From the NCBI GenBank assembly GCA_027532905.1, contig JAPZUA010000002.1, positions 1,116,001 to 1,180,000 on the forward strand: a stretch of DNA of 64,000 nt, given 5' to 3'. The translations under genes and the position numbers were made by a program. The notes beneath the pieces were generated by a model. That model saw only the letters and a list, made by a program, of their open reading frames with translations, searched no databases and had not been told where the DNA came from. This document shows, piece after piece, positions 17,516 to 22,574 of this stretch. The first letter of the stretch is position 1. Each line of letters begins with the position of its first letter. Origin of the DNA: Magnetospirillum sp. Lineage in GTDB: Bacteria > Pseudomonadota > Alphaproteobacteria > CACIAM-22H2.

Positions 17516-18229
17516 TCAGGCCTTGTCGAACAGCGCGTCGATATCCGCTTGATTTGGCGCCCCGCCGGGCGCTTGCGGGCCATTCAGCAACGCTTCGTCG
17601 CCGGTTCGCTTTGGCTTCGACGCGGCCGCCGATACTTGCGACAGATCCACTTTGGGCAGGTTGAGCGTGGCCAACAATTCCGCCACGGTCGTATCGACTT
17701 CCTTGAGAACCGAGACGACCTTGGAAATGCGCTGGCCGGTAATGTCCTGGAAATTGCAGGCTTCGTAGATCGCCGTCACGTCCTGCGTGATGGCAGCCGT
17801 CGCATCGCCCGGCATGGCGCGCGCCGTCTTCTCGATGCGCTCGACCGCGTCCAGGATGGCGTTGGTCGCAGACTCGGTGGCCCCGACGATGGCGCTGAGT
17901 TCGTCGCCGGCCGTCGGCAGATGCGTGCGCCCGATCTCTTGGGCTTGCAGGGCTGCCAAATCACGTTTGGCGTGCGCGATAATGAGGCCGAGGCGCGCAA
18001 TGCCACTATTGACTGCCGAGCCAGCGGCGGCCTTCGGCTTCTTTGCCGCGGGCTTCTTCGCCGCGGACTTCTTCGAGAGCGGCTTTTTGCGGGCAGGCAT
18101 TTTGGAAGGTGCCAGCTTGCGCGCCGGTGCTTTTGCAGCCTTTTTTGCGCGCTGCATCCGCCCCGGTTTTTTCGTCACAACGGCCTTTTTGGTCGCTGCG
18201 GCTTTCTTCTTTTTATTGGTTTTTGCCAC
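17516..18229 (-). CDS. cheZ: CheY-P phosphatase CheZ with a lysine-rich N-terminal tail
   Basis: A 237-residue protein from a GTG start. The CheZ four-helix core includes the catalytic segment ACNFQDITGQRISKVV with Asp162 and Gln166, equivalent to the residues that position water for CheY-P hydrolysis, and the C-terminal helix NQADIDALFDKA resembles the CheY-tethering tail. Unusually, residues 1-66 contain 23 Lys and 4 Arg and no acidic residue, in AAKKP-like repeats reminiscent of histone H1 or AlgP tails. An internal Met25 or Met44 could give a shorter protein. It lies 52 bases after cheY. The core call is firm; the tail's role is unknown. Confidence 0.9.
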   Translation of the reverse strand: MAKTNKKKKAAATKKAVVTKKPGRMQRAKKAAKAPARKLAPSKMPARKKPLSKKSAAKKPAAKKPKAAAGSAVNSGIARLGLIIAHAKRDLAALQAQEIGRTHLPTAGDELSAIVGATESATNAILDAVERIEKTARAMPGDATAAITQDVTAIYEACNFQDITGQRISKVVSVLKEVDTTVAELLATLNLPKVDLSQVSAAASKPKRTGDEALLNGPQAPGGAPNQADIDALFDKA

Positions 18230-18281
18230 CGCTTCGCCCCTTCCCGCGCTCGGGTCCGTGGTCGATCCGTGCCAGTTGGGC

Positions 18282-18668
18282 TTAGAAGTCGCCCAACACG
18301 GTCGCGATCTTGCCTTTCAGCGTTCCGGCATTGAAGGGCTTGACGATGTAGTTGTTGACGCCCGCCTGCTTGGCCGCGACCACGTTCTCGGTCTTGCTTT
18401 CGGCCGTGACCATGATGAACGGGATGTGCTTGAGCTTGGGGTCTGCGCGCACTTCCTGCAGCAGCTGCAGCCCGGTCATCGGCTGCATGTTCCAGTCCGA
18501 TATGATCAGGCCGTATTCTTTCTGGCGGATCTTCGCGAGCGCAGACGAACCATCTTCCGCTTCGTCCACGCTCGTGAAACCGATCTGGTTGAGAAGGTTT
18601 TTCACGATACGCAGCATCGTCTTGTAATCGTCGACGATGAGAACGTTCATACGAAGATCGACGGCCAT
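18282..18668 (-). CDS. cheY: Chemotaxis response regulator CheY
   Basis: A 128-residue single receiver domain. The acidic pocket is Asp13/Asp14 (LIVDDYKTM), the phosphorylation site is Asp58 (ISDWNM), with Thr88 (MVTAE) and Lys110 (YIVKPFN). Phospho-CheY binds FliM to change flagellar rotation. ATG 18668 follows AGGAG. It is followed by cheZ, whose product removes the phosphate, and preceded by a 192-base gap after motE with an AT-rich patch (about 18760-18800) that may hold its promoter. The sequence MTGLQLLQEVR is typical of CheY rather than of DNA-binding regulators. Confidence 0.95.
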   Translation of the reverse strand: MAVDLRMNVLIVDDYKTMLRIVKNLLNQIGFTSVDEAEDGSSALAKIRQKEYGLIISDWNMQPMTGLQLLQEVRADPKLKHIPFIMVTAESKTENVVAAKQAGVNNYIVKPFNAGTLKGKIATVLGDF

Positions 18669-18860: not shown

Positions 18861-19586
18861 TCACCCCGCCCGTGCGGGGATCTGCGAAGCGGGCTGGTTG
18901 CCGGGCTGGCGGCGGCGGGCAAGCTCGGCCGTGATCTGCTGGGCCCGGATCGGGTTCATCTGCGCCAGGATCGGGGCCGCACGGCGCTCGTTCATAGCCT
19001 CGACCAGTTCGAGCAGGATCGGCAGTTCCATCTGTTCGAAAATGCGCGCCGCTTCCGTCGGCTTCATGTTCTGGAACATGCGCACGAGGCTTTGGCGACG
19101 GGCTTGTTCCTGGTCGTCGTATTTGGCGATGGCACTTTGGACGGCCGTTTGCAGGCCTTTGAGTTCGTCGACCTGCTGTTGGATGCGCCGTTCGGCGGCC
19201 TGCAGGATCGCTTCGCGCTGCTCAAGCTCGGCCTCGCGACGGTCAATCTCCTCGCGGCGCTTGGCGAGATCCTCGAGCGCGTCGAGTTCGCCGGGGCTAA
19301 ACGTGCGCTCGCCGTCGGGTTGCACGCTGCCTGCGCGCGTGCGCGCGGGCGGCTCGGCGGCCGGCGCTCCTTGCGTAGATTGGGCTTGGGCGAACTGCAC
19401 GGGCGGCATCGTCGCCTGCGGGGCGGCGCGCGGACCCGGTGCGGGTGCGGCGGGTATGGACGCACGCTGCGGGCTCGGCGATTGCTGGGCCACCGCACTG
19501 CCGAGATTGCCGAGCCGCAAGCCCAGCATCAGCACGCCGACGAGAATGAGAACCGGCAGCAGCCGGATACGTTCGAAAATCTTCAT
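18861..19586 (-). CDS. motE: Flagellar motor protein MotE-like
   Basis: A 241-residue protein. An N-terminal membrane segment or signal (about 8-27, LLPVLILVGVLMLGLRLG) is followed by a Pro/Ala/Gln-rich linker, a charged coiled coil (about 95-160, DLAKRREEIDRREAELEQRE) and a C-terminal MgtE-N-like helical domain (MKPTEAARIFEQMELPILL). This layout is that of MotE, a periplasmic chaperone of the flagellar motor protein MotC in rhizobia. Its start overlaps the stop of the DUF6468 gene (ATGA), and fliM and fliL stand just upstream, so it belongs to a flagellar operon. Confidence 0.88.
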   Translation of the reverse strand: MKIFERIRLLPVLILVGVLMLGLRLGNLGSAVAQQSPSPQRASIPAAPAPGPRAAPQATMPPVQFAQAQSTQGAPAAEPPARTRAGSVQPDGERTFSPGELDALEDLAKRREEIDRREAELEQREAILQAAERRIQQQVDELKGLQTAVQSAIAKYDDQEQARRQSLVRMFQNMKPTEAARIFEQMELPILLELVEAMNERRAAPILAQMNPIRAQQITAELARRRQPGNQPASQIPARAG

Positions 19587-21272: not shown

Positions 21273-21812
21273 TTACTGGACGAGCATTTCGCGAAACAGC
21301 AGGTCGTTGACGCGCGCAGGTGCGGCGGCGAGCTGGACGCGCGTTAGCAGTTCCTCGCGCAGCCGCAGGAAGCCTGACGAGCCGCGCAGATCTTCCGGCC
21401 GCAATTCGCGCAGATAGATTTGGAAGTTGTCGACGATGCGCGGCAGGTTGGCTTCGAACACGCCCGCATCGTCGATGCTGCGCAGTTCGACCGCCATCGT
21501 AAGTTTCAGGAACGATGTGCGTCGACCGGCGCCTGCATTCAAGTTCACGAGCAGATCGGGCATGTTGTAGTAGACGATTTTCTGCGGGCCGGTGGGTTCG
21601 GCCGGGGCCGCATCTGGGCCCGCTTCGGCATGCTGCTCCTCGGGCTTAGGGCCGGAGAACAGGAAGAAGAACGCACCCGCACCGCCGCCCAGCAGCAACA
21701 AGACGGTGGCGCCGATAATGATCAGCATCTTGCCGGACAGAAACTTCTTCTTGGGCGCTTCGCCTTCCGGCGCTGCCCCGTCCTCGCCAGCCATCTTTGC
21801 GTCGTCGGCCAT
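21273..21812 (-). CDS. fliL: Flagellar basal body-associated protein FliL (copy proximal to fliM)
   Basis: A 179-residue single-pass inner-membrane protein: a charged cytoplasmic head (EGEAPKKKFLSGK), a membrane helix at about 29-52, an acidic Pro-rich linker, and a periplasmic stomatin-like FliL domain (YYNMPDLLVNLNAG to the C-terminal NDLLFREMLVQ). FliL surrounds the MotA/MotB stator and stabilises it under load. Immediately upstream, after 178 AT-rich bases, is a second fliL gene whose periplasmic domain shares IYLRELRPEDLRGS and APARVND with this one, so they are paralogues. Confidence 0.93.
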   Translation of the reverse strand: MADDAKMAGEDGAAPEGEAPKKKFLSGKMLIIIGATVLLLLGGGAGAFFFLFSGPKPEEQHAEAGPDAAPAEPTGPQKIVYYNMPDLLVNLNAGAGRRTSFLKLTMAVELRSIDDAGVFEANLPRIVDNFQIYLRELRPEDLRGSSGFLRLREELLTRVQLAAAPARVNDLLFREMLVQ

Positions 21813-21990: not shown

Positions 21991-22485
21991 CTATTGAACC
22001 AAGATTTCGCGAAACAGTACATCGTTGACGCGCGCAGGTGCTGCGCTGATTTTGATACGCGCGAGCAGCTCCTCGCGCAAGCGCATTAGGCCCGCCGAGC
22101 CGCGCAGATCCTCGGGCCGCAACTCGCGCAGATATGTGATCAGCGTATCGATCACGCGCGGCAAGGCCTCCTCGAAAGGCGTCAGGTCTTCTTCGACGAT
22201 CTCGACGGTCGAGGTGAGCTTTACGAAGGCGCCGCGCGCCGTGGGTGCGGTATTCAGATTCACCAATATGTCGGGCATCGCATAGATCATGGTCGGCGGC
22301 GGTGGCGGTGGCGGCGGTTCACCCGCTTCTTCCGCCACCTCTTCTTTGCCGCCGATAAAGCCCAGGAAATACGCCGCCCCGCCGCCGGCAAACAGCAGCA
22401 AAACCGGGATCAGAATTATGATCAGCTTTTTGCCCGAGAGCTTTTTCTTGGGTGCGTCGGCGCCGTCGGCGGCTGGCTCGGTCAT
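21991..22485 (-). CDS. Second FliL paralogue
   Basis: A 164-residue FliL family protein: basic head (DAPKKKLSGKK), membrane helix at about 20-42, an eight-proline run, then the periplasmic FliL domain starting MIYAMPDILVNLN and ending NDVLFREILVQ. ATG 22485 has AGGA upstream; an in-frame start at 22533 has none. It precedes the other fliL gene by 178 bases on the same strand. Some bacteria carry two FliL proteins for distinct flagellar systems or motor states; here both are in one flagellar cluster. The C-terminal halves are more alike than the N-terminal ones. Confidence 0.9.
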   Translation of the reverse strand: MTEPAADGADAPKKKLSGKKLIIILIPVLLLFAGGGAAYFLGFIGGKEEVAEEAGEPPPPPPPPTMIYAMPDILVNLNTAPTARGAFVKLTSTVEIVEEDLTPFEEALPRVIDTLITYLRELRPEDLRGSAGLMRLREELLARIKISAAPARVNDVLFREILVQ

Positions 22486-22574
22486 TTGGGCGGTCCTGGG
22501 CGGGCGTCCGGGGTGGACGAATCGCTGCGGCAATCCCGCAGCGCCGCTACTCTAGCCGCATTGGCCGAATACCG

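Follow-up and report, generated by a model that had tools for sequence, protein, structure and literature searches.

The chemotaxis phosphatase CheZ encoded in the window (the whole stretch of DNA analysed here, 64 kb in length) starts with a lysine-rich tail, and the N-terminal helical segment kept by its untailed relatives is, on alignment, exchanged for this tail. Our reading of the whole, on which our judgement is evenly balanced, is that the segment was swapped once for a disordered polycation that would place CheZ on the nucleoid and not at the pole. The tailed protein is a new CheZ variant, and the localisation principle is already known from other proteins. In our searches of the open-access literature, mostly of titles and abstracts, neither a lysine-rich tail nor a nucleoid location was reported for any CheZ.

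The cheZ gene (17516..18229, minus strand) is an open reading frame with a PF04344 match and encodes 237 amino acids from a GTG start at position 18229. This GTG is preceded by a ribosome-binding region, GGAAGGGGCGAAGCG (18230..18244, minus strand), recognized from the sequence and from the purine-rich sites before the starts of orthologues, with GGAAGGGG lying 7 nt upstream of the start codon. The eight tailed orthologues start with GTG or ATG in front of the basic stretch and behind a purine-rich sequence, and several of these starts are located about 21-24 nt past the cheY stop. As judged from this context, GTG 18229 is a sound start for the tailed CheZ. A later start, at Met25 or at an internal GTG, was considered and rejected because Met25, like most internal starts, is devoid of a Shine-Dalgarno-like site and because most of the charge would stay: 14 Lys and 4 Arg would be left in the tail if translation began at Met25. 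Weak 4-base Shine-Dalgarno-like matches were found before two internal starts, a GTG in the window CheZ and an ATG in the protein from genome G003.

The tail covers residues 1-71 (18017..18229, minus strand) and harbors 23 Lys and 4 Arg, no Asp or Glu and no aromatic residue. An earlier note on this DNA had given the same 23 Lys and 4 Arg and the absence of Asp and Glu for residues 1-66; our recount was identical, and both limits yield equal numbers because residues 67-71 read AAAGS. The AAKKP repeats described in that note correspond to two tandem AAKKP units, over which a 15-bp tandem repeat of 2.7 copies was detected by Tandem Repeats Finder (18036..18075, minus strand), but elsewhere in the tail the repetition is loose. 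The densest 50-aa stretch contains 17 Lys, and a six-frame scan of the 64-kb window, restricted to open stretches of at least 60 aa, returned no frame other than CheZ in which 50 aa hold at least 11 Lys. We also considered a genome-wide habit of Lys-rich tails and discarded it, as the tail, searched against the own genome, gave no second case and no other match better than E = 0.6. AlphaFold2 places no secondary structure at residues 1-68, with block mean pLDDT values of 44-49 over residues 1-70, and the tail is disordered according to this model. Calling it histone-like, as was done earlier, is fair by composition and not by family. A histone-family domain was rejected on the score of NF038053, the NCBIfam model of histone H1-like DNA-binding proteins (19.1 bits, cut-off 80), and the tail had no match among the sequences of solved structures.

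Behind the tail, the motifs of the window protein are those of an ordinary CheZ. It matches PF04344 (CheZ) with E=1e-13 and 52.1 bits, above the curated cut-off of 30.7, and D162 and Q166 are present in NFQDITGQ, which bears out the previous description of a CheZ with an intact core. The phosphatase motif DITGQ, from D162 to Q166 (17732..17746, minus strand), is invariant in 39 of 39 aligned sequences and corresponds to the FQDLTGQ of the E. coli CheZ structure 1kmi. A profile of the aligned CheZ family retrieved this E. coli protein with E = 4e-13 and extended over residues 14-88 and 127-211 of the latter, with FQDLTGQ and the C-terminus inside the aligned part; the E. coli CheZ differs in having merely 13 residues ahead of the shared part. 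This common part, from E. coli residue 14 onward, is retained in the tailed CheZ, and of its N-terminal helix the start is kept as residues 72-93 (17951..18016, minus strand), an assignment made from the model helix at 69-93 and from the profile alignment to 1kmi. At the opposite end, the stretch LLNGPQ...QADIDALFDK aligns with the 1kmi C-terminus, the putative CheY-binding end, and includes a modelled C-terminal helix at residues 227-235 (17525..17551, minus strand) as the expected CheY-binding end. The AlphaFold2 monomer model further comprises two long helices at 96-137 and 142-188, for a pTM of 0.37. By its scores, the window CheZ is outside the narrower NCBIfam groups, since neither equivalog was reached (NF008368, 40.9 bits for a cut-off of 257; NF041271, 12.8 for 350). 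By analogy with the E. coli CheZ, the tailed protein would be a dimer and an active phosphatase. A PHROGs search with the window CheZ returned solely phage families without useful function. The match of phrog_27430, a phage family of unknown function, to the CheZ core (17519-18229, minus strand; E = 3.7e-7) is hinting at phage-borne CheZ-like proteins.

The tail had been taken for an addition to a standard CheZ, and the comparison of sequences corrects this claim: a conserved N-terminal helical segment was replaced. In an alignment of 39 CheZ sequences (9 tailed, 30 untailed), the untailed relatives typically exhibit about 40-65 residues ahead of the position of residue 80, including a block where columns 54, 64, 65, 74 and 76 are occupied by V (28/30), G (30/30), D (26/30), Y (28/30) and E (30/30), respectively. 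The tailed proteins are devoid of these residues, except for the V at column 54 left in one of the nine, keeping in mind that an alignment of tail to block is loose by nature. Moreover, at residues 90, 91, 96, 178 and 179, all nine tailed proteins differ from the residue present in 28-30 of the 30 untailed ones. Alongside the tail, the core also changed, at residues 76-112 and 178-179, through E76G, E90D, I91L, P96A and E179D. In an untailed relative (L050), AlphaFold2 folds residues 4-20 and 26-39 into helices with modest confidence (block means of 54-65 over residues 1-40), and in the model of the window CheZ the helix begins at residue 69.

The CheZ of Azorhizobium caulinodans (CheZAC) and the untailed CheZ of Rhodospirillales share with the window protein the family, the ACNFQ and DxxxQ motifs and the C-terminal end, and cheY is directly upstream in 47 of 72 loci of the untailed relatives. 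They differ by their helical segment, which comes first where the window CheZ has its basic disordered tail. According to the available part of PMC7750401, a construct made of residues 1-70 of the A. caulinodans CheZ goes to the pole, a construct of residues 1-50 does not, and the protein without residues 2-70 is still polar. Because residues 1-70 suffice and the deletion of 2-70 is tolerated, the exchanged part is in this species a demonstrated, not the sole, localisation element, and loss of the segment therefore need not take CheZ off the pole.

Of the 11 genomes of the genus, 9 contained the orthologue, always with a tail; the tails are 43-71 aa long with 31-41% Lys and Arg, lack aromatic residues and hold no more than one acidic residue. 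Neither the cheZ orthologue nor the neighbouring gene was found in G007, of the same genus, and in G009 the contig breaks off at the neighbouring gene (match to base 22212 of 22220). Four genomes from other genera of the family encode the orthologue (G011, G012, G015, G022), none with a basic tail; the window protein could be aligned to that of G015 from residue 23, yet the G015 N-terminus is not basic. The order-level search covered the same 23 genomes as the family-level search and added nothing. Comparing the N-termini of orthologues had been put forward in the earlier note, untailed ones to count against the tail: the idea stands within the genus, with nine tails in nine, and does not extend outside it, where the orthologues are untailed.

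The own genome encodes three CheZ, with the tail on one and ordinary N-termini on the other two; a tail on every CheZ was discarded given the ordinary start of these two copies. They belong to a part of the tree apart from the tailed one. The three loci (L001, C1:151876-152157; L003, C2:861698-861982; L002, C2:1133525-1133806) are all distant from the CheW-type domains at C1:382574-384362 and C1:1402156-1403063. Net charge before the core amounted to +15 or more in the 9 tailed CheZ and ranged from -9 to +3 in the other 102, start choice for these counts being automatic, so that the window protein then begins at Met25; the starts of tailed proteins used for tail statistics were set by hand. 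The 111 distinct CheZ sequences, paralogues included, correspond to 140 reading frames minus 29 merged copies with the same core, arising from a genome shared by two collections or from a locus retrieved a second time; none was dropped for a missing start.

Of 385 genomes sampled across the class, 150 gave a match at E <= 1e-10; alignments from residue 1 or 2 were confined, among the matches listed, to the two members of the genus. Independent tails elsewhere were rejected as well: 14 of the 15 other listed matches beginning before residue 60 were examined, none being Lys-rich in front, and 6 further top loci of the class sample also presented no Lys-rich front. No tailed CheZ was thus found outside the genus among the matches listed in the class sample, the E. 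coli 1kmi being the only protein considered beyond the class; a rare tailed case may have escaped this list. In a tree of 65 cores taken from the 111 sequences, the tailed CheZ form one clade (support 100/100) that implies one change and whose stem is long, with 1.3 changes per column. On this tree, the tail arose once among the sequences gathered, probably in the ancestor of the genus.

Over 7 pairs, dN/dS was 0.30-0.62 in the tail and 0.08-0.24 in the core. Such a higher ratio in the tail, together with its variable length of 43-71 aa and the 15-bp tandem repeat inside it, would fit a low-complexity linker grown by slippage, with no targeting role and affecting solubility or expression only. 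We nevertheless hold this explanation for very unlikely in view of a tail dN/dS below 1, of the conservation of the tail in 9 of 9 orthologues found and of a charge retained beyond neutral simulation. Asp or Glu was involved in 1 of 65 aligned tail differences (three separate pairs), compared to 9-13% expected from random amino-acid changes. In the simulation, which took the window tail as ancestor, placed the observed number of changes at random and ignored indels, 3.4-4.1 acidic residues were expected vs. 0 and 0 in G003 and G002 (P 0.012-0.025), and a Lys and Arg fraction of 0.25-0.28 was expected vs. 0.39 and 0.33 (P 0.0003-0.024). These signs of selection on charge support a tail whose sequence and length drift and whose charge is held; with so few pairs, and these closely related, the result is support and not proof.

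The earlier idea of a tail that targets CheZ holds up: the tail probably attaches the enzyme to the chromosome or to some other negatively charged surface. Composition alone does not discriminate DNA from RNA, polyphosphate, membrane or acidic protein. DNA binding and a nucleoid location of the tailed CheZ are suggested by analogy with FrzCD, PhaF and AlgP. In Myxococcus xanthus, the positively charged N-terminal tail of FrzCD binds DNA with no sequence specificity, and related FrzCD keep the charge and not the sequence, as reported in the available part of PMC5716589. FrzCD resembles the tailed CheZ as a chemosensory protein with a basic N-terminal tail, and the same pattern of charge without sequence was observed in 9 of 9 CheZ orthologues. 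However, FrzCD is a chemoreceptor and not a phosphatase, its basic peptide has about 30 aa, and DNA binding has been shown for FrzCD alone. In Pseudomonas, granules are described as being tied to the nucleoid via the Lys/Ala/Pro tails of AlgP and PhaF (PMC9239181, PMC3574117, in the parts consulted). Both proteins present a disordered Lys/Ala/Pro-rich tail fused to another domain, as does the tailed CheZ, but their tail is C-terminal with regular repeats (KPAA in AlgP) and they are granule-associated proteins. Since AlgP, with its KPAA repeats, is found on polyphosphate granules (PMC9239181), the CheZ tail might instead bind polyphosphate, polyhydroxyalkanoate granule proteins or RNA/ribosomes, which would link the removal of the signal to nutrient status. 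Around cheZ, the genes checked were cheY and flagellar ones, and we regard such a target as unlikely.

The high positive charge of the tail, and the role of the N-terminal region as a localisation element in the A. caulinodans CheZ (PMC7750401, in part), would also fit a tail bound to the acidic inner membrane, perhaps to a cardiolipin-rich pole, which would keep CheZ near array and motor. Membrane binding is less likely, and in our opinion improbable, because the tails exhibit no aromatic residue (0 of 9) and no strong amphipathic stretch, the best 18-residue helical hydrophobic moments being 0.16-0.40 with a mean hydrophobicity of -0.30 to 0.14. In addition, there are merely 3-8 Ile, Leu, Val or Met per 43-71 residues and 4-7 Pro per tail.

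As for the genomic context, cheY (18282..18668, minus strand; Response_reg E=1.8e-29) is located directly upstream of cheZ, with a gap of 52 nt, and it occupies the same place in 8 of 8 other tailed genomes; the window cheY reaches 151.6 bits with the NCBIfam CheY model, under the cut-off of 189. The genes upstream of cheZ in the same direction are cheY, a gene for a MotE/FlbB-like protein, one for a DUF6468 protein, fliM and two fliL. The protein encoded upstream of cheY (18861-19586, minus strand) contains MgtE_N, and its FlbB-like match has 33.5 bits for a cut-off of 110. The fliL genes form a tandem pair (21273-21812 and 21991-22533, minus strand), both with a PF03748 match. With cheZ adjoining cheY and close to fliM, the tail might dock on an acidic protein surface, i.e., CheY, FliM/C-ring, or a ParA/MinD-type ATPase positioning chemotaxis complexes, and partners of ParA/MinD often use short basic peptides. 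Sequence and length of the tail vary freely, unlike those of a specific docking motif, and this explanation seems to us quite improbable.

If the tail is a nucleoid tether, a CheZ dimer would carry two tails, with about +54 together, that would bind DNA without sequence preference, so that the proposed site of CheZ is the nucleoid and no longer the cell pole. The core would dephosphorylate CheY-P while the tail holds the nucleoid, and CheY-P coming from the polar array would be erased mainly over the nucleoid. The site of signal erasure may thereby have shifted. A one-dimensional toy model was run at six settings, with diffusion and rates chosen by assumption; at D = 10 and k = 2, the far/near ratio of CheY-P was 0.59 for nucleoid-bound, 0.59 for soluble and 0.97 for pole-bound CheZ. 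With CheZ on the nucleoid, CheY-P close to the source increased by 8 to 70% across the six settings. The shape of the gradient was nearly unchanged from uniform to nucleoid-bound CheZ, the big contrast being with pole-bound CheZ; this near identity with soluble CheZ counts against the tether, as it makes a benefit harder to see. Given that in this model the gradient with CheZ on the nucleoid resembles that with soluble CheZ, unlike that with CheZ at the pole, the main predicted effect is therefore the loss of pole restriction.

The position of CheZ sets the spatial profile of CheY-P. Its placement is achieved via CheA-short in E. coli and via ChePep in epsilon-proteobacteria, and the A. caulinodans CheZ is at the pole independently of CheA, as stated in the available part of PMC7750401. 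The natural swap of the N-terminus across the genus offers a clean way to ask whether it matters where the phosphatase is placed. We propose tentatively, and with more doubt than conviction, that the phosphatase came to reside on the chromosome when a histone-like tail took the place of a pole-targeting helix. The nucleoid would then be a sink for the chemotaxis signal, and swimming could be tuned by nucleoid size or position or by Lys acetylation. If true, nucleoid scaffolding would be extended from a chemoreceptor, FrzCD, to the enzyme that terminates the signal.
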